From Lentzea kentuckyensis (GTDB lineage: Bacteria > Actinomycetota > Actinomycetes > Mycobacteriales > Pseudonocardiaceae): 64,000 nt of DNA. Below, piece by piece: positions 7,885-56,144 of this stretch. Position numbers and translations under genes: made by a program. Position 1 is the stretch's first letter; each line of letters opens with the position of its first letter. The stretch is taken from assembly GCF_002150765.1 (NCBI RefSeq), contig NZ_MUYM01000040.1:1-64000 (forward strand), read 5' to 3'. The notes beneath the pieces are model-generated. The model did not search any database and had not been told where the DNA came from. It worked only from the letters and a program-made list of their open reading frames with translations.

Positions 7885-10127
7885 CCGCCTACATCCGCGA
7901 CTTCGCATCCCTCAGCAAGAACGACACCGACGTCGCCGGCGGCAAGGGGGCCAATCTCGGCGAGCTCACCAGGGCGGGACTGGCGGTACCGCCCGGTTAC
8001 GTCGTCACCGCGGAGGCATTCCGGACGTCCATGAGCCAGGTCCGCGACGACCTCGCCGCCGAACTCCAGATCGCTCTCGACCGCGGCACCTCGCCGCAGC
8101 GGCTGGAGGAGTGCGCAGACCGGATGCGTGAGCTCGTGCGCAAGGCCGGTGTGTCCGACGACGTGCGGCACGCGGTGCTGGAGGCCTACCGCGAACTGGG
8201 CCAGGACGAGTCGGTCGCCGTCCGGTCCTCCGCCACCTCCGAGGACACCGCGGGCTCGTCGTTCGCGGGCATGAACAGCACCTTCACCAACACGCGCGGC
8301 GCGCACGCCCTGCTGGACCGGCTGCTCGACTGCTGGGTCTCGCTGTTCGACACCCGCTCGATCGCCTACCGCGCCGAACAGGGCATCGCCGACGAGCCCG
8401 CGATCGCCGTCGTGGTGCAGAAGATGGTGAACTCCGAGCGGTCCGGCGTGATGTTCACCGCCGACCCCTCCAGCGGTGACCGCGACAAGATGCTCATCGA
8501 AGCGTCGTTCGGTCTGGGCGAGGTCGTCGTCAGCGGATCGGTCGAGCCGGACACGTACGTGTTGCGCCGCAACGGCGACGCGGTATCGCTTGTGGACACA
8601 CGCATCGGCCGCAAGTCGCACAAGATCGTGCGCGGCTCGAACGGCGGTGACGAGCGCATCGACCTGGACACCGAGGAATCCCACGCTCAGGTGCTGACCG
8701 AGGCAGAAGCCGTCGCGATCGGCCAGCTGGGTCAGCGGGTGCAACGGCACTACGGCGAACCGCAGGACACCGAGTGGGCGATCGCCGACGGCAAGACGTG
8801 GCTGGTGCAGTCCCGGCCGATCACGACGCTGCCGGACCAGGCCGCGGAGTTGTCGGGCCCGCTGGTGGCAGGACTGGCCGCGTCGCCAGGAATCGCTTCG
8901 GGCAGGGTCCGGGTGCTGAACTCCCCCGACGAGGGCGGCCGGTTGCGCGACGGCGAGGTGCTGGTCGCCGAGATGACCAACCCGGACTGGGTTCCGACCA
9001 TGCGCCGCGCGTCCGCGGTGATCACCGACGGCGGCGGAATCACCTGTCACGCCGCCATCGTGGCCCGCGAGCTGCGCGTGCCCTGCGTGGTCGGCACCGG
9101 CTCGGCCACCACGGTGCTCGAGGAGGGCCAGCTGGTCACCGTCGACGGCAGCGCCGGAGAGGTCCGCGCGGGGTCGGCGCCGATCACGACCGCACCGAGG
9201 ATCGTCGCGCCGGTGGTGCAGGCCACGGAGGCGCTGGGCACGCGGGTGTACGTCAACCTCGCACTCCCCGAGCACGCCGCCGAGGTCGCCGCGATGCCGG
9301 TCGACGGCGTCGGTCTGCTGCGGGCGGAGTTCATGCTCACCGAAGCACTCGGAGCCGAACATCCGCGGCGGTTCCTCGCCCAGCGCGGCCCCGACGACTT
9401 CATCAACGCCATGACCTCAGCGCTGCTGCAGATCACCCACGCGTTCGCGCCGCGTCCGGTCGTCTACCGCACGATGGACTTCCGCACCAACGAGTTCCGC
9501 GAGCTCAAGGGCGGCGACGCGTTCGAGAAGCACGAGCACAACCCGATGATCGGCTACCGCGGCTGCTACCGCTACGTCGACGACCCGATGCTGTTCAGCC
9601 TGGAACTCCAGGCACTCGCGCGGGTCCGGGAGCAGACGCCGAACCTGCACCTGATGATCCCGTTCGTGCGCACCAAGTGGGAACTGGAGGCCTGCCTGGA
9701 GCAGATCGACCGCAGCCCGCTCGGCCGCCAGCGCGGCCTGCACCGCTGGGTCATGGCCGAAGTTCCTTCCGTGGCCTACTGGATTCCCGAGTACGCCCGG
9801 TCCGGCATCGACGGGGTTTCCATCGGCAGCAACGACCTGACCCAGCTCATGCTCGGCGTCGACCGCGACTCCGAACTCTGCGCGGACCTGTTCGACGAGT
9901 CCGACCCGGCCGTGCTCGACATGATCGGCCGCATCGTCACCGCCGCACGAGACGCGGGTATCACGTCCTCGCTGTGCGGCCAGGCGCCGTCCAACAAACC
10001 CGAGTTCGCCGAAAAGCTGGTCGAGTTCGGCATCACCTCGATCTCGGTCAATCCCGACGCGGTTCCCGCCGCCAGGGCGGCGATTGGCTCGGCCGAACGG
10101 CGCCTGTTGTTGCGGCAGATCCGTTAG
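7881..10127 (+). CDS. ppsA: Phosphoenolpyruvate synthase (pyruvate, water dikinase)
   Basis: A 748-residue enzyme converting pyruvate, ATP and water to PEP, AMP and phosphate. Domain order is standard: an N-terminal ATP-grasp nucleotide-binding domain ([16 protein letters not shown] at the start, [17 protein letters not shown] in the middle), the swivelling phosphohistidine domain with catalytic H390 in [15 protein letters not shown], and a C-terminal TIM barrel with [17 protein letters not shown] and the catalytic C699 in [10 protein letters not shown]. The length is a little under the roughly 790 of E. coli PpsA. It is co-translated with the Acg-type nitroreductase. Under oxygen limitation PEP synthase could route pyruvate or lactate back to gluconeogenesis or balance the PEP/pyruvate pool; regulation by DosR is inferred from the upstream motifs. 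Confidence 0.93.
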
Positions 10128-42989: not shown

Positions 42990-43943
42990 CTATTGCCTGC
43001 CTTGGTCACCACCATCCTTTCCCGGGCCGGCTGTGTGCGTCTTGGTCGTCTGTGCACGGTTGTTGGTCACCAGTGCGCGGGCGTTGTAGCCGTACGTCGC
43101 CTTGAACAGCTTGCTGAAATGGGTGGGATCGGAGAACCCCCACCGGGCGGCCACGGCGGTGACCGTACGTCCGCTTCCAGCCAGTTCGGCCCGGCAGCGC
43201 TCCAGGCGGCGACGGCGGATCAGCGCCGCGACGGTGAGCGGCTGGTCCTCGAACAGCTTGTGCAGCCGGCGTACGGAGATGTGATGGGCGGCGGCGATGC
43301 CGGGCGGGGACAGATCGGGATCGGCCAGCCGAGCCTCGATGTAGCCGGCGATCCGGTCCCGCAGCCACTCGTCCGGGGCCGGTTGTTCGTCGCCGAGCCG
43401 GGCCTCCAGTGCCACCGCGATCAGCTCGACGACCGCCGCCGCCGACCGCAACGCCTCCGCCTCGCGGAACCCGGTCGCCGACCGCGCCGACTCCCGGGCC
43501 AGCACGGAGACGAGAGCGCCCGGGCCGCGGCTGCCATCGATGCGTACGCCGATGAGCCGGTCGATCTGCGCGGGCCGGATCCGAAGCTCCCGGCGCGGAA
43601 CCAGGATAGTGACATGCGCCGCGGCGGTGCTCTCGAACCGGAGCGCACGCGTGGGATCGAGCAGCACCAGGTCGGTCGGCCCGAGTTCGGCGTCGCCGCG
43701 CCCTTGCTCGATCCGCGTCCGGCCCCTGGCCATCACCTTGATCGCCAGGTTCTCGCCGTCGGAGGCGTCACGCTCCCGCCCGACGCAGGCGCTCTCGGGC
43801 GTGTCCAGGGAGACCAGCCGCAGCGGCCCGAGGTCGCGGGTGGCGATCCGGCCCCGGAAGCCGGCCCCTGCCAGCTTGTTGACCAGCGGCGGAAACCCGC
43901 TGGCCGCCAGTTCGTCCTGGAACGTCTCGAGGTTGCTGATCAC
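42990..43943 (-). CDS. AraC-family transcriptional regulator
   Basis: A 317-residue regulator with an AraC-binding-like N-terminal domain (residues 1-180) and a C-terminal double helix-turn-helix: GIAAAHHISVRRLHKLFED and VTAVAARWGFSDPTHFSKLF, the second ending in the classic FKATYGYNAR signature. The ATG at 43943 is natural. The cupin gene directly downstream is the likely target. A perfect 16-bp inverted repeat lies 62 bases upstream and may be its operator or that of the PKS cluster. Confidence 0.9.
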   Translation of the reverse strand: MISNLETFQDELAASGFPPLVNKLAGAGFRGRIATRDLGPLRLVSLDTPESACVGRERDASDGENLAIKVMARGRTRIEQGRGDAELGPTDLVLLDPTRALRFESTAAAHVTILVPRRELRIRPAQIDRLIGVRIDGSRGPGALVSVLARESARSATGFREAEALRSAAAVVELIAVALEARLGDEQPAPDEWLRDRIAGYIEARLADPDLSPPGIAAAHHISVRRLHKLFEDQPLTVAALIRRRRLERCRAELAGSGRTVTAVAARWGFSDPTHFSKLFKATYGYNARALVTNNRAQTTKTHTAGPGKDGGDQGRQ

Positions 43944-44038: not shown

Positions 44039-44584
44039 GACTTAAGCCGGCATCGCTCCATTCAGCTTGTACAGCAGGCATATGATCACCCGGACGTGCT
44101 GTGATCGGATGACACATCCATTGCGATCCCTTTGGCACACAACCAAAAGGTCATTCGCAACGATGAAGAGAACGAAACGACCATATCGACCCCGGTCTGC
44201 GTGGACGAGGTTCTCCTGGGGACGACTGGCCTGTTCGAGTGAACGAGATGAACGCGACTTGTCGCACAGGTGAACAGGACTTACGGTTTCCTACCGACTC
44301 CGATTGACAGTTGCCACGCGCAGCTCGGGTCGCCTGCACCGGGGGGTTGCAATGAACGATCAGCTTGTTTACGACACCGATCTTTCCACGGCCGCTGGGG
44401 TATCCCTGCGGGGCCATCGCTGACGAACGGGTTCGAGCGAAGATCGGATATTCCGCACGGCTTCAGGTGTCAGGACACCGCGAGTAGCCGTCCTCGTGCG
44501 TCATCGACGCTGTGGACGGGTCCCGCAGGCGGTCCTGCTGCCTTGAAGGGTGCCCACCGACACCACCTTGGGGAGGGTGCAGTC
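44039..44584 (+). promoter_or_regulatory. Low-GC leader region upstream of PKS cluster
   Basis: About 545 bases without a convincing gene and clearly richer in A and T than the surroundings. An imperfect hairpin lies at 44121-44160 (outer arms TTGCGA and TCGCAA, inner CCTTTGG and CCAAAAGG). No transporter, regulator or transposase frame is seen. The strong ribosome site at its end (GGGAGGG, 44571-44577) serves a six-codon leader ORF. The region probably contains the cluster promoter and possibly an attenuator. Confidence 0.45.
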
Positions 44585-44605
44585 ATGGGTCGGGATCGAA
44601 GATGA
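44585..44605 (+). CDS. Six-codon leader ORF coupled to the megasynthase start
   Basis: ATG at 44585 encodes MGRDRR and stops at 44603-44605, overlapping the megasynthase ATG (44602) as ATGA. The strong GGGAGGG site lies 7 bases before the leader ATG, whereas the megasynthase ATG has only GGGATCGAAG in front. The layout suggests that ribosomes start on the leader and re-initiate on the large gene. It is too short to be judged by codon use. Confidence 0.4.
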   Translation: MGRDRR

Positions 44606-47600
44606 GCAGTACCAACACATCCGCGTCAGCCACGATCGCAGCGTTGTTGCGCGCCAACGTCGAACGAGCGCCCGATGCGCTCGCCTACCGCTTCGTCGAG
44701 GACTCGGACGCCAGCCAGACGTGGACCTACCACCAACTCGACAGGTACGCGCGGGCCGTCGCGGTTCGCCTTCAGCGAGAAGGGTTGCGCGGCAAGCCGG
44801 TCTTGCTGCTGCACCAACCGGGGCTGGACCACATCGGGGCTTTTTTCGGTTGCCAGTACGCGGGTGCCATCGCCGTGCCGGCGTATCCGGTCGACACCAA
44901 CCGCTTCAGCCAGTCGATGCAACGGCTGGCCGCGATGGTGCGGGACTGCGGGGCGACACACGCGCTGACCACGGGCAGCTTCGCCCAGCACGCCGAGACC
45001 CACGAACGCGAGATGGCAGCGATCGGGCTCGACGCGGTGCGGTGCCTGATGACCGACGCGGTGGACACGTCGCTCGCGGACCAGTGGGACGATCCGGGTA
45101 CCAGCCGCGACTCGCTGGCGTTCCTGCAGTACACCTCGGGGTCGACCTCGGCCCCGAAGGGCGTCATGCTCAGCAACGACAATCTCCTGCACAACCTGGA
45201 CGCGATCCACCGCAGGATCGGCCACGACGAGAACTCTGCGATCGTGTCCTGGCTGCCGCCCCATCACGACCTCGGCCTGATCGGGTGCGTGCTCAACGCC
45301 CTCTACGGCGGCATACCGCTGCACTTCATGTCTCCCATGGCTTTTGTCCGGCGACCGGTGCTGTGGCTGGAGACCCTGTGGCGGACCGGCGCCACCACCT
45401 CGGGCGCCCCCAACTTCGGCTACGAACACTGCCTGCGCAAGGTCACCGAAGAGCAGCGGGACGCCCTCGACCTGTCCCGGTGGAGACACGCCCTCAACGG
45501 CGCCGAGCCGGTCCGATCAGAGACCCTGGACCGCTTCGCCGAGTTCTTCGCGCCGTGCGGCTTCGACCGCCGCGCCTTCGCACCGTGCTACGGGCTCGCG
45601 GAGGCGACCCTGATGGTGACCGCGACCGAACCGGAGGCCCTGCCGACGCAGCGTGCTTTCGACGCGGCCACGGTGGCTGAAGGTGCTCCCGCGCCGGCAA
45701 CCGACCAGTCCGTCCGCAGCACCTGGTTGGTCGGCTGCGGTCCCGCCGCCACCGGCGTCACCGTCGCCGTCGTCGACGAGGTCACCGGGAACCGGGTTCC
45801 TCCAGGCCACATCGGGGAGATCTGGGTGGCGGGGCCGAGCGTCGCCCAGGGCTACTGGGGCAAGGACGAGGACACCCGGCGGACGTACCGGGCGACCATC
45901 CCCGGTGAGCCCGAAACGTCCTACCTGCGCACCGGTGATCTCGGATTTCAGACCGAGGGCGAGCTGTTCGTCGTCAGCCGCGCCAAGGACGTCGTGGTCG
46001 TGCAGGGCAACAACTACTACCCGCAGGACATCGAGGCGACGGTCGAGAGGGCGATCAGCGCGTCGAGGACGAACAGCGTTGTCGCGTTCTCGATCGACGT
46101 GGACGGCGCCGAGGAGATGGTGGTCGCCCTCGAGGCGGCAGGCAGCCGGCTGGACGACACCGATGGCCTGCTCGCGGCGGTGCGGGCCCGGATCGCGGCC
46201 GAGCACGAGGTTTCGCCGCACGCCGTCGTGGTGCTCCGCCCTGGCGCGCTGCCCAAGACGACCAGCGGCAAGCTGCGACGACGCGCGTGCGCGGAATCCT
46301 TCCGCGACTTCGCGTTGCCTGTTGTGGCAGCGAGTGTGGTGCGGAGTTCCCTGCCACGAGCCGGTATCGGCCGGACGAGTGCGGCCACGGCGCTCGAAGT
46401 ACTCGCGGACATCACCGGACGGACGGAGCTCGCGGGCCGCGACTTCGCCGAGCTCGGCCTCGACTACTCCCAGCTCCTCGCCGTGCTCCGGACCACCGAA
46501 GCGGCTCTGGGCTCGTCCCTGCCGATCGGACCACTGCTGGTGGCGCCCCGAGTGGACACGCTGCTGGCCCTGGAGCGCCGGGAGAACCAGCGCGATGTCC
46601 CGGCGCCGGCCGCGATCCAGGAGTGGCTGCGCGCACGGCTCGCGGACGTGCTCGGCCTGCCGACCGGCGCGATCGACACCACGGCGCCGCTGACCGCGAT
46701 CGGCGTGAACTCGCAGCAACTGGTGACCCTCGCCGACGAGTTCGGCGCCTGGCTCGGCCAGGAGGTGACACCCGCGGTGCTGTTCGACCACCCGACCATC
46801 CGGGACCTGGCGCGACGGTTCGGCCGCCCGGCACCGACCAGGCCGGCCGCCACCACGAGCAGCGACCGCGGCGACGACGAACCCGTTGCGATCGTGGGCA
46901 TCGGCTGCAGGTTCCCCGGCGCACCCGACGTGCAGTCCTTCTGGGAGCTGTTGGTGGAAGGACGTGACGCCATCACGGAGGTCCCCCGTCAGCGCTGGGA
47001 CGCCGCTTCCTCCGCCGGCCCGGGGTACGGCGGGTTTCTCGATCACGTCGACGAGTTCGACGCCCGCTTCTTCGGCATCTCCGCCCGCGAGGCCCAGCGG
47101 ATGGATCCGCAGCAGCGGCTGCTGCTCGAAGTCGCCTGGGAGTGCGTCGAAGACGCCGGGACCGCCCCGACCGCCCTCGCCGGCAGCGACGTCGGCGTGT
47201 TCATCGGCATCAGCAGCAACGACTACGCGACCCTGCCATCGGGCCGGCACGACGACCCCGACCTGCACACCGCGACGGGCAACGCCCACGCCATCGCGGC
47301 CAACCGGCTGTCGTTCCTGCTCGACCTGCGCGGTCCGAGCATCGCCCTCGACACAGCGTGCTCCTCATCGCTCACCGCGGTGCACCTGGCCTGCCAGAGC
47401 CTGCGCGAGCACGAATGCGGCCTCGCTCTCGCCGGCGGTGTCAACCTCATGCTGTCACCGGTGCTGACGACGGCCTTCGCGAAGGGGCGGATACTCGCGC
47501 CGGACGGCCGCTGCCGCGTGTTCGACGACGATGCCAACGGCTACGTCCGCGGAGAAGGCGCGGGGATCGTGTACCTGAAGCCGCTCTCGCGCGCGCTGGC

Positions 47601-50600
47601 CGACGGTGACCGCGTCTACGCGACGATCAACGGGTCCGCCGTCGGGCACGGCGGCCGCACCAACGGGATCACCGCGCCGAGCGGAGCCGCGCAACGACGG
47701 GTGATCGAGCGTGCGCTCGCCAAGGCCGGGCTCAGCGCCGAGCAGATCGACTACGTCGAGGCGCACGGCACCGCGACCAAACTCGGTGACCTGGTCGAGT
47801 GGGAGACGCTGACCGCCGTCTACGGCGCGGGCCGCCCCGAGGACAAACCGTGCCTGATCGGGTCGGTCAAGAGCAGCATCGGTCACCTGGAGGCGGCCGC
47901 GGGGGTCGCCGGGCTGATCAAGGCGGCGCTGGTCGTGCATCACGGTGAGGTGCCACCGCAGCTGCACCTGACGACCCCGAGCACCCGGCTGGCCTGGACC
48001 GACTCGGGGCTGTCCGTGTCCACGCGGCGAATCGCACTGCCGACGCGCGGTACCGCCCGCGCGGCGGTCAGCTCGTTCGGTTTCGGTGGCTCGAACGCGC
48101 ACGTCGTCCTCGAGCGGGCCCCGCGCGTTGAGGTCACCGCCGACACACCGGAGCGCACCGCGCACGTGTTGTCCTTGTCCGGACACACACCCACCGCGCT
48201 GCGCACGCTGGCCGAGCGCTACCGGCGGCACATCGCGGCGAACCCCGCCACCAGGACGGCCGACCTGTGCCGCGCGGCGAACACCGGACGCGCGCTGCTG
48301 CGCCATCGCGCGGCGGTGGTCGGCAGGACCGCCGCGGAGCTCGACGCCGCACTGGCCTCGCTGGCGCGCGACACCCCGTCGACCGCGCTGGTCCAGGACG
48401 TCGACGCCGCGCGCGAACGGCAGGTCGCGTTCCTGTTCAGCGGCCAGGGCGCGCAGTACCCGGGGATGGGGCGCGAGCTCTACGAGGGCCATCCGGTGTT
48501 CCGGAACACCATCGACCACGCGGATTGCGTGCTGCGGCCGTTGCTCGACCGCGCGCTTCCCGACCTGCTCTTCGCCGAGCAGGACGCGGACCTGCTGGCG
48601 CGGACGCGCTACTGCCAACCGGCCCTGGTCGCGCTGGAGGTCGCCCTCGCCCGGCTGTGGACGGCACTCGGGGTGCGACCGGTGGCGGTGCTGGGACACA
48701 GCGTCGGTGCCTACAGCGCCGCCTGCGTGTCGGGTGCGGTCCGGTTCGACGACGTGCTCACCCTCGTCGCCCTGCGCGCCCGGCACATGGACGCGCAGAG
48801 CGCGACCGGCGCCATGATCGCCTGCGTGGGCGACGCGGAGATCATCCGTGCGGTCGCCGAGGAGGAGCCCTCGGTGGTCGTCGCCGCGGTCAACTCACCC
48901 GATCACCTGGTGCTGTCCGGGCCGATCGATGCCGTCTCCCGCGTTCAGCGCGAGCTCGAGGCCGGTTCGGTCGCGGTCCGCCGCCTCCAGGTCTCGCACG
49001 CGTTCCACTCGCCGACGATGACCGGTGCGGCGCCACTGCTGCGCGACGCCGTCCGGACCGTGCGGTTCGGCATGCCGGCGACACCGTTCGTCAGCGACAT
49101 GACCGGCAAGGTGGTTGACGACCTGGGCGGGACCTACTGGGTGGACCACATGCTCAGCCCGGTGATGTTCGCGGACGGGTTCACCACCCTGCAGCAGTTG
49201 GGGTGCGACGCCTTCGCCGAGATCGGTCCCAGGTCGACTCTGCTCACGCTCGGCCGGGGCATGAGCTCCGAGGACGACGACGTGCTCTGGTTGCCCTCAC
49301 TGCGTTCCGGGCACGAGTGGGAGATCCTGCTGCGTTCGCTGGGACGCCTGCACTGCTCGGACGGCAGCGTGGACTGGGCGGCACTGGATCCGGACCGGCC
49401 CCGCGTGGCCGTGAGCGTTCCGCACGCCGTCTACGAACCGCAGTCGTACTGGTTGGACACGACGACCACGAGCGAAGCCTCCGGAGCTCTCCGCGTGCCC
49501 GCAGGTGCTCCCTCTGCCCCGGCGGTCGCCGGTCGCGTGCTGAACCGGCAAGAGGTTCTGGACCACCTCTCGCACGTGTCGGGATTCGCCTTGGACCAGA
49601 TCGCCCCGCACGCGCGACTGGGCGCCGACCTCGGCTTCGACTCGCTGATGGCGACCGAGTTGCACCGGCGGCTCGTGCCGCGGACCGACGGCCAGGCCGA
49701 TCAGTTGCGGCAGGTGCTCACCAGGGATCCCACCGTGGCCCAGTTGATGGAGCTGCTGGACGTCGGTGAGGACGCGCCCGCTGCCACACCCGAGGCCGAG
49801 GTTCTCCCAGCTAGGGCAGGAACGAGGTTCGAGCAGTGGCCGGAGTACGTCGCCCTGCGGCAGCGCCGGCAGCAGGTCGAGCTCACCGGTGCCAACCCCT
49901 ACAACCGCGTCCACGACGGTTACAACTCCGGGCGCACGACGGTCGCCGGGGAACGGGTCGTGAACTTCGCGGCGTTCAACTACCTCGCGCTGTCCAACCA
50001 CCCCCGCGTCCGCGAGGCGGCCAAGGCGGCCATCGACCGCTACGGGACCTCCGCGTCGGCGACTCCGCTGCTGTGCGGTGAGACACCGCTGCACGAGGAG
50101 CTCACCGCGGAGATCGCCGAGTTCCTGGGCACCGAGTCCGCGATGGTCTTCGCCGGCGGCCACGCCACCAACGTCGCCACCGTCGGGCACCTGTTCGGAC
50201 CACCCGACGTGATCCTGCACGACCAGTGGATCCACGACAGCGTCGTGCGCGGCTGCGTGCTGTCGGGAGCGCAGCGCCAACCGTTCCCGCACAACGACTG
50301 GGCCGCGCTCGACGAGCGGCTGCGTCTGGCGCGACACCGCCACCGCAGGGCGTTGGTCGTGATCGAGGGGGTGTACAGCCAGGACGGGGACGTGCCAGAC
50401 CTGCCGCGGTTCATCGAGGTCGCGAAGCGGCACGACGCGATGATCATGGTCGACGAAGCCCATTCCGTCGGCGTGCTCGGCGCGACGGGCGCGGGCATCG
50501 GTGAGCACCACGGCGTGAACCGCACCGATGTCGACCTCTGGATGGGAACGCTGAGCAAGGCCTTGGGCAGCCTGGGCGGGTACATCGCCGCCCGTGACCC

Positions 50601-51024
50601 CGTGATCGAGTATCTCCGGTACACCACGCCGCTGCACATCTTCAGCACCGGGATCTCACCGGCCAACGCCGCCGCGGCGCTGGAGGCCATCCGCGTCGTC
50701 CGCGACGAGCCCGAACGGGTCTCCAGGGTGCGGCAGCTCGCGGAGTTCCTCAGAACCGCCGCGCGGGCCAGGGGGTTGGACATCGGGGTTTCCCGTGAGT
50801 CGGCCGTGATCCCGATCATCCTGGGCCAGTGGGAGCTGACGATGAGCGTGTCCAACGCGCTCCTCGCCGCCGGGGTCAACGTAATGCCCATCGGCTACCC
50901 CGCGGTCGCCCAGGACCAGTGCCGGCTGCGCTTCTTCGCCAATGCCGACCACAGCGAGGACGACGTCGAGTACGCCCTCGACCGGCTGGTCGAGGCCACG
51001 CGCGCGGCAGGAGACCGACGGTGA
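44602..51024 (+). CDS. RedL-like megasynthase: FAAL-ACP-ACP-KS-AT-ACP-alpha-oxoamine synthase
   Basis: A 2140-residue assembly line. Fatty acyl-AMP ligase (about 1-575; LQYTSGSTSAPKGVM, SWLPPHHDLGLIG) activates a fatty acid. A first ACP-like domain (about 590-660) has ELGLDYSQ where the Ser is expected, so it looks inactive. The second ACP (about 668-750) has S704 in IGVNSQQ. KS (758-1180) has C920 (DTACSSS), H1055 and H1095. AT has S1367 (GHSVG) and H1469 in SHAFHS, the malonyl-CoA type. The third ACP has S1681 (LGFDSLM). The C-terminal PLP domain (about 1743-2140) is an alpha-oxoamine synthase with K1986 (GTLSKALGSLGG) and VDEAHSVGVLG. No KR, DH or TE. It should extend a fatty acid by two carbons and condense it with an amino acid, releasing a beta-keto amino ketone. 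The architecture equals RedL of prodiginine biosynthesis. Confidence 0.95.
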   Translation: MSSTNTSASATIAALLRANVERAPDALAYRFVEDSDASQTWTYHQLDRYARAVAVRLQREGLRGKPVLLLHQPGLDHIGAFFGCQYAGAIAVPAYPVDTNRFSQSMQRLAAMVRDCGATHALTTGSFAQHAETHEREMAAIGLDAVRCLMTDAVDTSLADQWDDPGTSRDSLAFLQYTSGSTSAPKGVMLSNDNLLHNLDAIHRRIGHDENSAIVSWLPPHHDLGLIGCVLNALYGGIPLHFMSPMAFVRRPVLWLETLWRTGATTSGAPNFGYEHCLRKVTEEQRDALDLSRWRHALNGAEPVRSETLDRFAEFFAPCGFDRRAFAPCYGLAEATLMVTATEPEALPTQRAFDAATVAEGAPAPATDQSVRSTWLVGCGPAATGVTVAVVDEVTGNRVPPGHIGEIWVAGPSVAQGYWGKDEDTRRTYRATIPGEPETSYLRTGDLGFQTEGELFVVSRAKDVVVVQGNNYYPQDIEATVERAISASRTNSVVAFSIDVDGAEEMVVALEAAGSRLDDTDGLLAAVRARIAAEHEVSPHAVVVLRPGALPKTTSGKLRRRACAESFRDFALPVVAASVVRSSLPRAGIGRTSAATALEVLADITGRTELAGRDFAELGLDYSQLLAVLRTTEAALGSSLPIGPLLVAPRVDTLLALERRENQRDVPAPAAIQEWLRARLADVLGLPTGAIDTTAPLTAIGVNSQQLVTLADEFGAWLGQEVTPAVLFDHPTIRDLARRFGRPAPTRPAATTSSDRGDDEPVAIVGIGCRFPGAPDVQSFWELLVEGRDAITEVPRQRWDAASSAGPGYGGFLDHVDEFDARFFGISAREAQRMDPQQRLLLEVAWECVEDAGTAPTALAGSDVGVFIGISSNDYATLPSGRHDDPDLHTATGNAHAIAANRLSFLLDLRGPSIALDTACSSSLTAVHLACQSLREHECGLALAGGVNLMLSPVLTTAFAKGRILAPDGRCRVFDDDANGYVRGEGAGIVYLKPLSRALADGDRVYATINGSAVGHGGRTNGITAPSGAAQRRVIERALAKAGLSAEQIDYVEAHGTATKLGDLVEWETLTAVYGAGRPEDKPCLIGSVKSSIGHLEAAAGVAGLIKAALVVHHGEVPPQLHLTTPSTRLAWTDSGLSVSTRRIALPTRGTARAAVSSFGFGGSNAHVVLERAPRVEVTADTPERTAHVLSLSGHTPTALRTLAERYRRHIAANPATRTADLCRAANTGRALLRHRAAVVGRTAAELDAALASLARDTPSTALVQDVDAARERQVAFLFSGQGAQYPGMGRELYEGHPVFRNTIDHADCVLRPLLDRALPDLLFAEQDADLLARTRYCQPALVALEVALARLWTALGVRPVAVLGHSVGAYSAACVSGAVRFDDVLTLVALRARHMDAQSATGAMIACVGDAEIIRAVAEEEPSVVVAAVNSPDHLVLSGPIDAVSRVQRELEAGSVAVRRLQVSHAFHSPTMTGAAPLLRDAVRTVRFGMPATPFVSDMTGKVVDDLGGTYWVDHMLSPVMFADGFTTLQQLGCDAFAEIGPRSTLLTLGRGMSSEDDDVLWLPSLRSGHEWEILLRSLGRLHCSDGSVDWAALDPDRPRVAVSVPHAVYEPQSYWLDTTTTSEASGALRVPAGAPSAPAVAGRVLNRQEVLDHLSHVSGFALDQIAPHARLGADLGFDSLMATELHRRLVPRTDGQADQLRQVLTRDPTVAQLMELLDVGEDAPAATPEAEVLPARAGTRFEQWPEYVALRQRRQQVELTGANPYNRVHDGYNSGRTTVAGERVVNFAAFNYLALSNHPRVREAAKAAIDRYGTSASATPLLCGETPLHEELTAEIAEFLGTESAMVFAGGHATNVATVGHLFGPPDVILHDQWIHDSVVRGCVLSGAQRQPFPHNDWAALDERLRLARHRHRRALVVIEGVYSQDGDVPDLPRFIEVAKRHDAMIMVDEAHSVGVLGATGAGIGEHHGVNRTDVDLWMGTLSKALGSLGGYIAARDPVIEYLRYTTPLHIFSTGISPANAAAALEAIRVVRDEPERVSRVRQLAEFLRTAARARGLDIGVSRESAVIPIILGQWELTMSVSNALLAAGVNVMPIGYPAVAQDQCRLRFFANADHSEDDVEYALDRLVEATRAAGDRR

Positions 51025-51089
51025 CCGGCGAGTCCGCGATCGGAGTCGAAAAGCACTGTGCCGCAACGCAACGACCGGAAGGCGGAGCA

Positions 51090-51902
51090 ATGGAGGGACA
51101 CGCCGCAGTAGTGCTGATCACTGGTGCATCGGCGGGCATCGGCCGCGCCTGCGCGGATCGGTTCGCCGCGTCGGGCTGGACGGTGGTCGGGGCGAGCCGC
51201 CGCGGAACCGGCGGCACCGGCTGGACCGGTGTGGTCGTGGACGTCGACGACACCGAGGCCGTCACCAGCGGTGTCGCCGAGGTCGTGCGGCAGCACGGCC
51301 GCCTGGACGCGGTCGTCGCCGCCGCTGGTCACGCCCTGGCCGGGGCGGTCGAACACACCGGCATCGACGAGGCGCGGGCGGAGTTCGAGACGAACTTCTG
51401 GGGCTGCGTCCGGCTCGTCCAGGCCGCGCTGCCGCACCTGCGCGCCCAGCGCGGCGGCCGCATCGTCCTGATGAGCTCGATCGGCGGCGCGATCGGCCTG
51501 CCGTTCCAGGCGTTCTACAGCGCCAGCAAGTTCGCTCTCGAGGGCTACGCGGAGTCGCTCGCGTACGAGGTGCGGCCCTTCGGCATCGCGGTGACGCTCG
51601 TCGAGCCGGGAAACGCGGCGACCGACTTCACGGCCAACCGCCGGATGGCGGCCAAGGCGGCCGCCGACGACGTCTACGGCGACGCGCTCAAACTGGCCAT
51701 CGACGTCATGGAACGCGACGAAGCCAACGGTTGCACCGCCGACCAGGTGGCCGCCGTCGTGCAGAGGGTCGTGCAGGCGCGACGCCCGCCGCGACGGGCG
51801 TCGGTCGGCAAGGCGGGCGAGCGGGTCGGGCTCGTCGCCAAGCGGCTTCTCCCGTTCAGCGTGTTCGAGAAGGCGGCCAAGAGCAGCCTCGGTGTCAGCT
51901 GA
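51090..51902 (+). CDS. Short-chain dehydrogenase/reductase (first)
   Basis: A 270-residue classical SDR: cofactor motif ITGASAGIGRACADRF at the N-terminus, GRIVLMSSIGGAIGL, and the catalytic YSASKFALEGY (Tyr-x3-Lys). Nearest general type is the retinol dehydrogenase/3-ketosphinganine-reductase-like group with a C-terminal helical tail; the substrate is not determined. The ATG at 51090 follows GGAAGGCGGAG; an in-frame GTG at 51021 overlaps the megasynthase stop (GTGA) and could add 23 residues. It probably reduces one keto group of the megasynthase product. Confidence 0.88.
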   Translation: MEGHAAVVLITGASAGIGRACADRFAASGWTVVGASRRGTGGTGWTGVVVDVDDTEAVTSGVAEVVRQHGRLDAVVAAAGHALAGAVEHTGIDEARAEFETNFWGCVRLVQAALPHLRAQRGGRIVLMSSIGGAIGLPFQAFYSASKFALEGYAESLAYEVRPFGIAVTLVEPGNAATDFTANRRMAAKAAADDVYGDALKLAIDVMERDEANGCTADQVAAVVQRVVQARRPPRRASVGKAGERVGLVAKRLLPFSVFEKAAKSSLGVS

Positions 51903-51931
51903 CGCACTGGTCGAAGAGGAAAGGCGGGATC

Positions 51932-52768
51932 ATGGCTGAGCTTTCCGGACGGACGTTCCTGATCACCGGGGCCAGCACCGGGATCGGCCTCGCGACCGCG
52001 AAGGCGCTGGCCCAGCGCGGCGGCCGGTTGTACCTGGCCTGCCGTTCGGGCGCCAAGGGGCGCGCGGCGGTGGCGGACGTCGTTGCCGGCACCGGCAACA
52101 GCGACGTCGACCTGCTCGAGCTCGACCTGGCCGACCTCGCCTCGGTCGACAGGTGCGCGCGCGACTTCGTCGCCCGCGGCGAACCGCTGCACGTGCTGAT
52201 CAACAACGCCGGCATGGCGGGCCACCGCGGTCTCACCAAGGACGGCTTCGAGCTGACCTTCGGCGTGAACCACCTGGGCCACTTCGCGCTCACCACGGGA
52301 CTGCTGGACCTGCTGATCGCCAGTGGACCGTCCCGAGTCGTCACCGTGTCCAGCGATGCGCACTACAGCGCCAAGGGCATCGACTTCACGGCGTTGCGGC
52401 GGATGACCCGCCCGGTCACCGGCTATGCCGAGTACCGCGTCTCCAAACTCTGCAACGTGCTGTTCAGCCAGGAGCTGGCGCGCAGGCTGGCCGGGACCGG
52501 AGTCACCACCTACTGCGTGCACCCCGGCGTGGTGGCGTCCGACATCTGGCGGAAGGTGCCCTGGCCGGTGCGGTCGCTCATGACGAGATTCATGATCAGC
52601 ACCGAACAGGGCGCCGAGACCACGGTGTACTGCGCGACGTCGCCGGAAGTGGCCACCGCGAGCGGACTGTTCTACGACAAGTGCCGGGAACGGGAAGCCA
52701 GTTCCCGTGCCACTCCCCAGCTGGCCGAGGAGCTCTGGGCGCACAGCGAGCGGTGGATCAAGCAGTAG
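51932..52768 (+). CDS. Short-chain dehydrogenase/reductase (second)
   Basis: A 278-residue SDR of the retinol dehydrogenase 11-13/protochlorophyllide reductase-like type: LITGASTGIGLATAKAL, VLINNAGMAG, VVTVSSDAHYSA and YRVSKLCNVLF with the catalytic Tyr and Lys. The C-terminal tail VDPGVV-like segment reads VHPGVVASDIW. The ATG at 51932 follows GAGGAAAGGCGG. Two different SDRs side by side suggest that two carbonyls or two steps are reduced, as expected from a beta-diketo amine intermediate. Confidence 0.88.
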   Translation: MAELSGRTFLITGASTGIGLATAKALAQRGGRLYLACRSGAKGRAAVADVVAGTGNSDVDLLELDLADLASVDRCARDFVARGEPLHVLINNAGMAGHRGLTKDGFELTFGVNHLGHFALTTGLLDLLIASGPSRVVTVSSDAHYSAKGIDFTALRRMTRPVTGYAEYRVSKLCNVLFSQELARRLAGTGVTTYCVHPGVVASDIWRKVPWPVRSLMTRFMISTEQGAETTVYCATSPEVATASGLFYDKCREREASSRATPQLAEELWAHSERWIKQ

Positions 52769-52782
52769 CCGCGGAGGCGACC

Positions 52783-53673
52783 ATGTCGATCACTCTTTCG
52801 CCGGCCGAACTGGAAGGCCTGGAGGAACGCGTGATGGCGGCCTTCCGCACGGGCCGCGACTCCTCGCTCGACGTCATGGGCTACGGCGAGAGCTCGGTCG
52901 TCCTGCGCCTGGAGACCGAGCACGGCGTGCTGGCCTGCAAACGGCTGCCCACCTTCGACGACCAGGCCCGGTTCGACCGGTACCACCAGCGGTTCGGGCA
53001 GTACCTGCGACGGCTCCGGCAGGCAGGCCTGTCCGTCGTCGAATCGGAGCTGAAGTCGCTGACGTCACCGTCCGGCGAGGTGGTGGCCTACTGCGTGCAG
53101 GAGGCCCTCCCGTCCCGGCGACTGTGCTCGGAGCTCCTGCGCACCGAGGACGAGGCATGGGCCCGCGGCTTCTTCACCCGTTACCTCGATGCCGTCGGCC
53201 GAGTCGTCACCCCCGCGCTGGGGCTCGACGCACAGGCGTCGAACTGGATCGACGTCGACGGCGAGCTGCGCTTCGTCGACGTCACCACGCCATTCCTGCG
53301 TGATGAGCATGGCCGGGAGTTGTTGGACGTGCGGCTGTTCCTCGGCTCGCTGCCGTGGGTCCTGCGCACACCGGTCCGGGTGACGATGACCAAGCGGATC
53401 CTCGACAAGTACTACTCGTTTCGCGGCGTCGTCATCGACTTCCTGGGCAACCTGCACAAGGAATCGCTCGGCGATCTGGTGCCGGCCCTCGTCGAGGAGG
53501 CGAACGCGCGGCTGGACCCGCCGATCAGCGTCCAGGAGGTCCGGCGGTACTACGCGGGCGACGCCACGACGTGGAAAGTCCTCCAGCGGCTCCGCCGGGC
53601 CGACCGGTTTTGGCAGCTCAAGGTTCGGCGCAAGCCCTACTGCCATCTGCTGCCACCCGAGTTCAACCGATAG
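52783..53673 (+). CDS. Kinase-fold protein of unknown substrate in biosynthetic cluster
   Basis: A 296-residue protein that I do not recognise from a named enzyme. It shows the layout of an atypical protein/small-molecule kinase: a glycine-rich loop (MGYGESSVVLRLET), a lysine in the next strand (LACKRLPTFDD), a catalytic-loop-like DAQASNWIDVDG (Asp-x4-Asn) and FVDVTTPFLRD with an Asp where the DFG Asp is expected. The C-terminal about 100 residues are helical and basic. The length is close to aminoglycoside/choline-type phosphotransferases. The ATG at 52783 follows GCGGAGGC. Within this cluster it may phosphorylate the amino lipid; a catalytically dead binding protein is also possible. Confidence 0.6.
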   Translation: MSITLSPAELEGLEERVMAAFRTGRDSSLDVMGYGESSVVLRLETEHGVLACKRLPTFDDQARFDRYHQRFGQYLRRLRQAGLSVVESELKSLTSPSGEVVAYCVQEALPSRRLCSELLRTEDEAWARGFFTRYLDAVGRVVTPALGLDAQASNWIDVDGELRFVDVTTPFLRDEHGRELLDVRLFLGSLPWVLRTPVRVTMTKRILDKYYSFRGVVIDFLGNLHKESLGDLVPALVEEANARLDPPISVQEVRRYYAGDATTWKVLQRLRRADRFWQLKVRRKPYCHLLPPEFNR

Positions 53674-53683
53674 GCGAGGACGG

Positions 53684-55117
53684 GTGATTCCGCTGACCGA
53701 CCTACAGCGCCGTTGCGCGTTCTTCGCCGTCATCAGCACGACGTTCATGACGTACCTGGACAACAACATCGTGAACGTCGCCCTGCCGTCCATGCAGCAC
53801 GACCTGCACCTGTCGGTGTCCGGGCTCGAATGGGTGGTCAGTTCGTACGTGCTGGTCTTCGGCTGTTTCCTGCTGGCCTGCGGCAAGCTCGCGGACCTCT
53901 ACGGCAACCGACGGCTCTTACTGGTGGGAACGGTGGTCTTCACGCTCGCGTCGCTGTCGGCAGGACTGGCCTGGAACCCGGCCGTCCTGATCGGGAGCCG
54001 GGCGGTGCAGGGCCTGGGCGCGGCCGCCGCCACACCGGCCACACTGGCCATCATCTCGGTCCTCTACCCGTCGCAGCGGCAGCGGTATCTGGCGATGGGC
54101 GTCTGGGGCGCCGTCGGCGCGCTGGGCCTGGCGCTGGGCCCGCTGCTGGGGGGCGTTCTCAGCCAGCACGCGAACTGGAGCTTGATCTTCTTCATCAACG
54201 TCCCGGTCGGCGTGGCAGGCGTCGCTCTGGGTGCTTGGGCGATCCGGCCACCGGCGGCGGATCGGGCCGGCGCACGGGTCGACGTCGCCGGACTGACCAG
54301 TTCGGGCTGTGCGCTGCTCGCTCTGACCTACGCGCTGATCCAGGGCAACCAGGCAGGCTGGAACTCACCCGTCATCCTGGGCTGCCTGGCACTCGCCGTG
54401 CTCTGCGGCATCGCCTTCGTCGTCATCGAGCGTCGCGGCACCGACCCGATGATCGACCTCTCCTGGTTCCGGGACCGCGTCTTCGGCGGGGGGATGGTCG
54501 CCGCGTTCATCTGGGCGTTCGGCATCTACGGGATCTACTTCTTCACCTCGCTCTACCTGCAGGACGTGCTCGGGTTCTCGCCGACGCGGACCGGACTCGC
54601 GTTCGTGCCCATGGCGCTGCTGGTGATCCTCGGGTCCGTGCTGAACGGCCAGGCGGCACGCCGGTTCGGCGCGCATCGGTCCGTAGCCTGCGCCATGGCG
54701 GTGATGGCCGCGGGCATGGCCGGCGGCCTGCTGCTCGGCAGGAACGCGAGCTTCATCCAGGTCACCGCGGTGTTGGTGGTGATGGGGATCGGGGCGGGTT
54801 TCACCACATCACTGCCCACCACGATCCTCGGTGTCATGCCCGCGGAGAGGGTCGGGGTGGCCTCCGCGATCTTCAGCACCGTCCGCCAGATCGGCGGGCT
54901 GCTCGGCATCATCTCGATCGGCGCGGTACTGGTCGCCCGTCAGAGCTCGGCGCGCAACGCGGGCCACCCGGCGGGCGACGCGTTCATCGAAGGGTTCCAC
55001 CTCGGCCTTGTCACTTCGGCCGGACTGGTGGCCGTCGGTGGCGTCGTCGCCTACCTCGCCTTGCGTCCGGCAGCGGCGACCGTGCGTGATCAGGACAGCC
55101 TCAACCAGGCTCGGTAA
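53684..55117 (+). CDS. DHA2-type MFS drug exporter
   Basis: A 477-residue, 14-helix major facilitator of the DHA2 (EmrB/QacA) type. Landmarks are FMTYLDNNIVNVALPSMQ (motif D1), GKLADLYGNRRLLL (motif A) and GPLLGGVLSQHANWSLIFFI (motif C region). Such proteins export lipophilic compounds. The GTG at 53684 lies 10 bases after the kinase-like gene's stop, so it belongs to the cluster operon and probably exports the product or gives self-resistance. Confidence 0.92.
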   Translation: MIPLTDLQRRCAFFAVISTTFMTYLDNNIVNVALPSMQHDLHLSVSGLEWVVSSYVLVFGCFLLACGKLADLYGNRRLLLVGTVVFTLASLSAGLAWNPAVLIGSRAVQGLGAAAATPATLAIISVLYPSQRQRYLAMGVWGAVGALGLALGPLLGGVLSQHANWSLIFFINVPVGVAGVALGAWAIRPPAADRAGARVDVAGLTSSGCALLALTYALIQGNQAGWNSPVILGCLALAVLCGIAFVVIERRGTDPMIDLSWFRDRVFGGGMVAAFIWAFGIYGIYFFTSLYLQDVLGFSPTRTGLAFVPMALLVILGSVLNGQAARRFGAHRSVACAMAVMAAGMAGGLLLGRNASFIQVTAVLVVMGIGAGFTTSLPTTILGVMPAERVGVASAIFSTVRQIGGLLGIISIGAVLVARQSSARNAGHPAGDAFIEGFHLGLVTSAGLVAVGGVVAYLALRPAAATVRDQDSLNQAR

Positions 55118-55152
55118 CGGCGATGGTCAGGTGCCCGTTCTAGGGTGGGCGG

Positions 55153-56004
55153 ATGAAGGTTCTGTCCATCCAGTCGGTCGTCGCCCACGGCCACGTCGGC
55201 AACTCCGCCGCCGTGTTCCCGCTGCAGCGCATCGGGGTCGAGGTCGTCCCGATCCCCACGGTGAACTTCTCCAACCACACCGGGTACGGCGCGTGGCGCG
55301 GTCCGCTCCTGCCGCCGTCGGAGGTGGCCGAGATCCTGCTCGGGGTGGAGGAACGCGGGGTGTTCGGGCAGGTCGACGCCGTGCTGTCCGGTTACCAGGG
55401 CGGCACGGGCATCGCCGATGTGATCATCGACGCGGTGCGCAGGGTGAAGGCCGCGAACCCGGCGGCGCTCTACGCGTGCGACCCGGTGATGGGCAACGCC
55501 AAGTCCGGCTGCTTCGTCGCGCCCGAGATCCCCGTGCTGCTGCGCGACCGGGTCGTGCCGGTGGCCGACATCATCACCCCGAACCAGTTCGAGCTGGGCT
55601 TCCTCACCGGCACCGAGCCCGCGAGCGTCGAGGAGACGCTGGCGTCGGCCGACCTCGCCCGCGCGATGGGCCCGTCGACCGTGCTGGTCACGAGCGTCGA
55701 GCGGCCCGACCGTGAGGAGGGCACGATCGAGATGCTCGTCGTGGACACCGCCGGGTCGTGGCTCGTGAGCACCCCGCACCTGCCGTTCAAGGCGAACGGG
55801 TCCGGCGACGTCACGGCCGCGCTGTTCACCGCCCACTACGTGCAGACGAAGGACGCGGCGATGGCGTTGGAGCGCACCGCGTCGAGCGTCTTCGACCTGA
55901 TCGACCTGACCCACCGCTCCGGTGAGCGCGAGCTGCGGCTGGTGCAGGCCCAGGAGTTCTACGCGACGCCGCGGATGCAGTTCAAAGCCGAGCAGGTGCG
56001 CTGA
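55153..56004 (+). CDS. pdxY: Pyridoxal kinase
   Basis: A 283-residue PfkB-superfamily kinase of the PdxY/PdxK type that phosphorylates pyridoxal to PLP. VLSIQSVVAHGHVGNSAAVF, VNFSNHTGYGAWRG, CDPVMGNA, ITPNQFELGFLTG and the C-terminal FKANGSGDVTAALF (anion hole and catalytic Asp) are all present. It lies 35 bases after the exporter gene on the same strand. The alpha-oxoamine synthase domain needs PLP, so supply of its cofactor is plausible, but pdxY is also a housekeeping gene in actinomycetes and may simply be a flanking neighbour. Confidence 0.95.
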   Translation: MKVLSIQSVVAHGHVGNSAAVFPLQRIGVEVVPIPTVNFSNHTGYGAWRGPLLPPSEVAEILLGVEERGVFGQVDAVLSGYQGGTGIADVIIDAVRRVKAANPAALYACDPVMGNAKSGCFVAPEIPVLLRDRVVPVADIITPNQFELGFLTGTEPASVEETLASADLARAMGPSTVLVTSVERPDREEGTIEMLVVDTAGSWLVSTPHLPFKANGSGDVTAALFTAHYVQTKDAAMALERTASSVFDLIDLTHRSGERELRLVQAQEFYATPRMQFKAEQVR

Positions 56005-56042
56005 GCCCGACCCGCGCGGTCGCCGCGCGGGACGACCCGCGA

Positions 56043-56116
56043 CCGTCCGGCCCGCCACCCCGCGCAGGTCGGTGCCGAGGCACGAGACCGACAGCACCGG
56101 GTGGCGGGCCGGACGG
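56043..56116. terminator. Large inverted repeat between convergent pdxY and DsbA-like genes
   Basis: CCGTCCGGCCCGCCACCC (56043-56060) and its exact complement (56099-56116) form an 18-bp GC-rich stem with a 38-base loop, exactly between the converging genes. The position fits a bidirectional terminator; the long loop is unusual. Confidence 0.6.
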
Positions 56117-56144
56117 CGAGCAGACCGTCAGCCCCCCGCCGTCC

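Follow-up and report, generated by a model that had tools for sequence, protein, structure and literature searches.

The window analysed here, a 64,000-nucleotide stretch of Lentzea kentuckyensis DNA (contig NZ_MUYM01000040.1, positions 1 to 64,000; C197 in our numbering), carries a five-gene cassette built around a megasynthase in which polyketide synthase (PKS) domains are fused to an alpha-oxoamine synthase (AOS) related to that of RedL, from the prodiginine (red) cluster of Streptomyces. The genome under study (G000) comprises 10.2 Mb and is 92% complete. The megasynthase contains a fatty acyl-AMP ligase (FAAL), acyl carrier proteins (ACPs), a ketosynthase (KS), an acyltransferase (AT) and the pyridoxal phosphate (PLP)-dependent AOS, and is followed by two short-chain dehydrogenases/reductases (SDRs), a DUF6206 protein and an exporter of the major facilitator superfamily (MFS):

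44602..51024, + strand: RedL-type megasynthase, 2140 aa (Pfam domains, residue check, AOS and KS trees)
44602..46326, + strand: FAAL, aa 1-575 (Pfam AMP-binding; NCBIfam FAAL-type matches below cutoffs)
46354..46566, + strand: degenerate first ACP, aa ~585-655, Tyr622 at the serine position (alignment, motif check)
46621..46818, + strand: ACP2, Ser704 (Pfam, alignment, motif check)
46879..48117, + strand: KS, C920/H1055/H1095 (Pfam, motif check, KS tree)
48430..49260, + strand: AT, S1367/H1466, motifs GHSVG and HAFH (Pfam, alignment, motif check)
49519..49776, + strand: ACP3, Ser1681 (alignment, motif check)
49834..51015, + strand: AOS, K1986 (PLP)/D1951/H1878, Thr1821-Pro1822 pair (alignment, trees, motif check)
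51090..51902, + strand: SDR1, classical SDR (motifs TGASAGIG and YSASK; NCBIfam)
51932..52768, + strand: SDR2, classical SDR (motifs TGASTGIG and YRVSK; NCBIfam)
52783..53673, + strand: DUF6206 (PF19709) protein (Pfam match, kinase-like motifs)
53684..55117, + strand: MFS exporter, DHA2 type (EmrB subfamily model, Pfam/NCBIfam)

The five genes, all on the + strand and present as the initial annotation had listed them (PKS-AOS, two SDRs, a kinase-fold protein and an MFS exporter), are separated by gaps of only 65, 29, 14 and 10 nt, which fits an operon; a scan for promoters and terminators gave no signal above chance. The megasynthase reading frame has a possible earlier start at 44512. Pfam matched AMP-binding, ketoacyl-synthase, acyltransferase, Aminotran_1_2 and two PP-binding stretches (one at aa 674-739) in the megasynthase, and no ketoreductase domain.

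The megasynthase had been read as FAAL-ACP-ACP-KS-AT-ACP-AOS with its catalytic residues present. Both statements hold for every domain except the first ACP: catalytic residues, which we placed by motif, are present in the FAAL (K557), KS, AT, ACP2, ACP3 and AOS, but the first ACP reads LGLDYSQ, with Tyr at the phosphopantetheine Ser site and a Ser one residue later. At the same site, 12 other aligned RedL-type proteins have Tyr (7/12) or His (1/12), or miss the motif altogether (4/12). Since the first ACP is degenerate at its serine, the single protein is better written FAAL-(degenerate ACP)-ACP-KS-AT-ACP-AOS, with probably two working ACPs rather than three. The AT motif HAFH is of malonyl type. 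The FAAL is 52-60% identical to nine aligned RedL FAALs and 70-78% identical to the two FAALs of window type.

A search for co-occurrence of the gene set, as the initial annotation had suggested, showed it to be conserved. At E <= 1e-200, the FAAL domain matched in 3 of 390 genomes of the family, namely the window's own, Umezawaea tangerina DSM 44720 (G060) and a third genome, G244. U. tangerina holds all five genes in identical order at 79-89% identity (megasynthase 80%, SDR1 89%, SDR2 85%, DUF6206 79%, MFS 79%), and the conserved order indicates that the set stands together beyond chance. The G244 locus is a variant, with the megasynthase (AOS 81%), DUF6206 (55%), another SDR and an MFS gene (60%) that are divergently placed, and a gene judged by eye to be thioesterase-like. 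No close SDR1 was found in G244 (best match 29%); the SDR of its variant is nearest to a mycolate reductase model, at 190 bits and below the cutoff of 380.

Kinship of the AOS and its amino-acid-selecting loop

Fusions of PKS and AOS domains are common as such: the window AOS found matches at E <= 1e-100 in 15 of 394 genomes of the class, and of its 15 matches outside the window, 13 belong to frames of >1000 aa. Among 295 Streptomyces genomes, 48 gave matches at E <= 1e-90, of which 12 make up a top group (E <= 1e-196; 67-73% identity); below this group the highest match stands at 49% (2e-140). We examined the neighbourhoods of this RedL-type group in 11 of the 12 genomes; the AOS of the twelfth (G981), where the AOS and DUF6206 matches are on separate contigs, was left out.

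In the AOS tree, the window domain (MEGASYNTHASE) is united with those of U. tangerina, G244, the 11 RedL proteins and G033, another genome of the same family, in a clade with support of 100/100. The window, U. tangerina and G244 form a subclade within it (99/94); the order in which the RedL proteins branch is weakly supported. The KS tree likewise gives a RedL-type clade (99/98), in which G033 sits on a long branch flagged by a program warning. To the RedL proteins of the 11 red clusters the window is 71-75% identical in the AOS and 64-69% in the KS, as compared with 44-52% between its AOS and 13 other actinomycete AOS examined. The likeness to RedL proposed initially is thus borne out by both domains. 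It extends to domain order, to the degenerate or missing first ACP motif and to the AOS loop; unlike in Streptomyces, the window megasynthase is accompanied by two classical SDRs and an MFS gene and has no RedP/Q/R, RedJ or RedK beside it.

In the amino-acid-selecting loop, all 15 RedL-type AOS (window, U. tangerina, G244, 11 RedL and G033) have a T-P pair, which none of the 27 others shows; these have S-R (24) or A-R (3). These 27 include the 11 RedN proteins, whose amino acid is serine according to the consulted portions of reviews, and three AOS from other PKS clusters on named plasmids. The latter three, an SgaAB-like AOS and two PKS-cluster AOS, all have S-R and, unlike the window, are placed outside the RedL clade. 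The SgaAB-like AOS comes from a plasmid of another Pseudomonas that has the two-gene layout of SgaAB; SgaB of MYb115 itself was not among the AOS compared. As given in the available part of PMC11906848, the loop residue beside the substrate side chain is Ser in serine palmitoyltransferase (SPT) and AONS, Val in KBL, Thr in ALAS and Leu in Alb29. From its place in the RedL clade and its TP pair, the window AOS is judged not to be of the SPT/SgaB kind. We infer that its amino-acid partner would be glycine, mainly from its kinship to RedL, which is a stronger argument than the loop residue: RedL uses glycine to give 4-keto-2-undecylpyrroline, which RedK then converts to 2-undecylpyrrole, in the sections seen of two reviews (PMC11188435, PMC12654105).

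Several families of the class also have other PKS-AOS genes with an S-R or A-R loop (L043-L053), four of these loci (L043-L046) having a separate FAAL-like gene beside the PKS-AOS gene. Plasmid p3 of Planktothrix agardhii encodes a PKS with a C-terminal AOS (L120:2581-10179), of which the AOS is 47% and the KS 54% identical to the window.

DUF6206 and the prodiginine clusters

The protein encoded by 52783..53673 belongs to PF19709 (DUF6206; 241.8 bits, cutoff 30.4). Its distribution in Streptomyces follows that of the RedL-type AOS: DUF6206 occurs in 12 of the 295 genomes, exactly the 12 with a RedL-type AOS, and in 11 of these the two lie on one contig, ~13-15 kb apart. All 11 clusters examined match the RedN-, RedP-, RedR-, RedU-, RedV-, RedW- and RedJ-like proteins of one of their number (G588), 10 of the 11 match a RedG-like Rieske protein, 7 of the 11 hold DUF6041, and DUF6206 stands between RedR and RedU in every one. 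The red gene names were assigned by content and order, after the published S. coelicolor cluster. In the accessible part of PMC7581861, SCO5883 is redU and SCO5884/85 are red genes whose role is given as unknown; since DUF6206 stands beside redU, it corresponds by gene order alone to SCO5884. Among 200 genomes of the family, a sample that does not include G244, DUF6206 was above cutoff in two, the window's own and U. tangerina, and a search of plasmids gave no match. Open-access literature yielded no paper on DUF6206 and none pairing undecylprodig- with redT, the name of this gene in the red cluster.

The window thus shares a RedL-type synthase and DUF6206 with the prodiginine clusters. In contrast to them, RedH, RedN and DUF6041 were not found in its 92%-complete genome, in line with the initial report that no prodiginine genes are seen. 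RedH gave only partial matches (~120-380 residues, 30-58%) in G000, U. tangerina and G244, as against near full-length matches in G588, G1011, G990, G838 and G033 (45%). The best RedN match in the same three genomes was 41-42%, versus 64-81% in 10 other red clusters, and DUF6041 was found in none of the three. Neither of the cassette SDRs matched anything in the red-cluster stretches, and no search aimed at RedK itself was made in G000. Inside an 848-aa frame of the window, 7935-8864 shares 40% identity with the opening third of RedH. Since the match is limited to that third, the frame probably encodes an unrelated phosphotransferase akin to PEP synthase. G033 (4.9 Mb) holds a divergent prodiginine-like cluster (L042, G033:C1:1517500-1537400) with a RedL-type AOS (62%), RedH (45%), a RedW-like protein (45%) and DUF6041.

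Outside red-type clusters, DUF6206 was found at 12 further loci (L012-L023), mostly of Myxococcota/Deltaproteobacteria metagenome-assembled genomes: nine are labelled Myxococcales, Polyangiaceae or Deltaproteobacteria, two come from uncultured bacteria and one from Microthrixaceae. In 11 of the 12 a class III aminotransferase gene lies directly upstream (L020 has none; at L013 only the gene end is visible, with Ns beyond). At these loci, too, DUF6206 goes with a PLP enzyme, here a class III aminotransferase and not an AOS. For the aminotransferases of two loci, ArgD and PigE models of NCBIfam scored about equally and below cutoff (241 and 240 bits for L014). As the neighbours are amine-making PLP enzymes, the analogy suggests that DUF6206 works at an aminoketone or pyrroline stage.

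The window DUF6206 has kinase-like motifs (GYGE, K53, D149-x4-N154 and D166), in a spacing that resembles that of APH kinases. All 25 homologues that span these sites conserve GYGE/GHGE, CKR, N154 and D166, and all but one of the 25 (L017) conserve Asp149. No kinase family in Pfam matched any of 13 members at E up to 10, DUF6206 itself aside. By sequence, the PDB gave nothing but short segments of potassium channels from plants (E 0.0017 at best), which we took as chance. The kinase fold is a putative one, assigned from the motifs.

A proposed pyrroline-type pathway and its alternatives

We consider it fairly probable that the cassette is an orphan monopyrrole branch of the prodiginine type, which would make and export an SDR-reduced 2-alkyl-pyrroline, -pyrrole or -pyrrolidine lipid. 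The FAAL would take a free fatty acid supplied by primary metabolism, activate it and load it onto the first working ACP, and KS, AT and the third ACP would add a single malonate to give a beta-ketoacyl thioester. The AOS would condense this thioester with glycine, with loss of CO2, to a 1-amino-2,4-diketone that, as with RedL, would close to a 2-alkyl-4-pyrrolinone (4-keto-2-alkylpyrroline). With one malonyl extension and no ketoreductase before the AOS, the amino-diketone and thence a pyrrolinone would be expected rather than a 3-keto-sphinganine. The family nearest to SDR1 reduces alpha-aminoketones, and SDR1 may replace the unrelated RedK at the ring ketone. SDR2, nearest to PRK06197-type oxidoreductases in NCBIfam and with protochlorophyllide reductases among its best solved matches, may carry out a second reduction or one required for aromatisation. 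DUF6206 would have its place in the same branch and is probably a kinase-fold enzyme that acts at the aminoketone or pyrroline stage. The end product, a 2-alkyl-pyrrole or 2-alkyl-hydroxypyrrolidine lipid, would leave by the MFS protein, which is above cutoff for the EmrB subfamily (242.7 bits, cutoff 230.2). As RedP/Q/R and RedJ are not in the cassette, no chain length is predicted.

That absence is itself one of several observations that weigh against an orphan RedL branch. The nearest solved structures to the AOS by sequence are bacterial SPTs (231 bits), with KBL next (219 bits); in NCBIfam it scores highest to the bioF, KBL and SPT models, every one below cutoff. ThAOS V79T was active solely with L-alanine in the assay described in the consulted text of PMC11906848, so Thr in the loop by itself favours glycine weakly. 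The best NCBIfam match of SDR1 is 3-ketodihydrosphingosine reductase (258.5 bits, below the cutoff of 400), and the gene at the RedK position in G1011 encodes a different kind of SDR, nearest to OleD and below cutoff. Moreover, G033 has a RedL-type AOS, RedH and DUF6041 and no DUF6206 either in its 20 kb stretch or in the 200-genome search, so the link between DUF6206 and RedL is not absolute, and the co-occurrence in Streptomyces may reflect shared inheritance of one cluster.

The SPT structures and the SDR1 match favour the initial proposal of a sphingoid-like product. On such a reading the AOS would take serine or alanine, the SDRs would reduce both carbonyls, DUF6206 would phosphorylate a hydroxyl and the MFS protein would export the lipid. 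Pseudomonas also offers a precedent: in the portion of PMC12134224 at hand, a PKS of P. fluorescens and the AOS SgaB, near-exclusive for serine, make sphinganines, and PKS-AOS plus SDR (SgaABC) yields sphingolipids. The window resembles this system in that a PKS feeds an AOS, and SDR1 is nearest to a KDSR family, below cutoff; it differs in that SgaB is encoded by a separate gene and the Sga PKS is described there as iterative. DUF6206 bears kinase-like motifs, but matches no kinase family. Against the proposal stand the position of the AOS in the RedL clade, away from RedN and the three other PKS-cluster AOS, its TP in place of the SR of SPT and RedN, and the glycine and ring-closed product given for RedL in the review sections cited above. 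An SPT/SgaAB assignment was ruled down as first choice by the AOS tree and the loop signature, despite the structures; a phosphorylated sphingoid product is not supported, and we regard an acyclic sphingoid-like product as unlikely.

Glycine could also end in an acyclic or partly reduced amino alcohol, if an SDR acted on the beta-ketoacyl-ACP or on the diketone before closure and a 1-amino-2,4-diol or amino-hydroxyketone were exported. Two SDRs are conserved at 85-89%, whereas a single reductase, RedK, follows RedL in the reviews as far as consulted, and the G244 SDR leans to mycolate reductase. The megasynthase, however, has no ketoreductase domain, and the amino-diketone closes after release by RedL in the available text of PMC11188435; this outcome, too, seems to us improbable. 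More doubtful still is that the cassette is what is left of an earlier prodiginine cluster, or supplies a monopyrrole to another pathway in the genome. The RedL/DUF6206 pair is indeed common to red clusters, but every domain except the first ACP retains the catalytic residues looked for, SDR1, SDR2 and MFS are conserved across two genera although none of them matches anything in the 11 red-cluster stretches examined, and neither RedH nor RedN was found in the genome.

The orphan cassettes would be the prodiginine pathway reduced to its monopyrrole half, with DUF6206 retained and RedH, RedN and DUF6041 gone, and this retention would therefore point SCO5884 to the RedL branch. A five-gene system is small enough to make the role of SCO5884 testable. 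By title and abstract, the open-access literature on PKS-AOS, RedL and alkylpyrrole held no orphan RedL cluster, and no paper was found there on the fatty pyrrole-type metabolite that the cassette predicts. It is possible, and we suggest it tentatively, that Pseudonocardiaceae have a free-standing pathway to alkylpyrrole or pyrrolidine lipids, with a core in common with the monopyrrole branch of prodiginine, and that DUF6206, the family of the unassigned SCO5884, is a new kinase-fold family. Its substrate would be an aminoketone or pyrroline made by a PLP enzyme, which in actinomycetes would be an AOS and in Myxococcota a class III aminotransferase. If so, prodiginine biosynthesis would gain a step that is undrawn in the parts of PMC11188435 and PMC12654105 available to us. 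The case also cautions that a PKS-AOS cluster need not be a sphingolipid cluster.

Neighbouring genes

One gene upstream of the cassette is a possible regulator of it, listed apart from the conserved set:

42990..43943, - strand: AraC-type regulator

Downstream, the pyridoxal kinase gene pdxY (55153-56004) was considered as a sixth gene and rejected. Nothing in the sequence read around the U. tangerina cluster matched it, and it is missing from the called genes that found counterparts in G244, in a comparison run without a pdxY query. Of 24 genomes of the genus 19 carry it, and among these 19 the FAAL (E <= 1e-200) is confined to the window's own genome. In 18 of the 23 other genus genomes pdxY is 93-99% identical. 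In the stretch 55098-56127, DNA similarity between the window and these relatives ends near the boundaries of the gene, and several relatives have unrelated flanks; pdxY looks like a single gene moving between sites.

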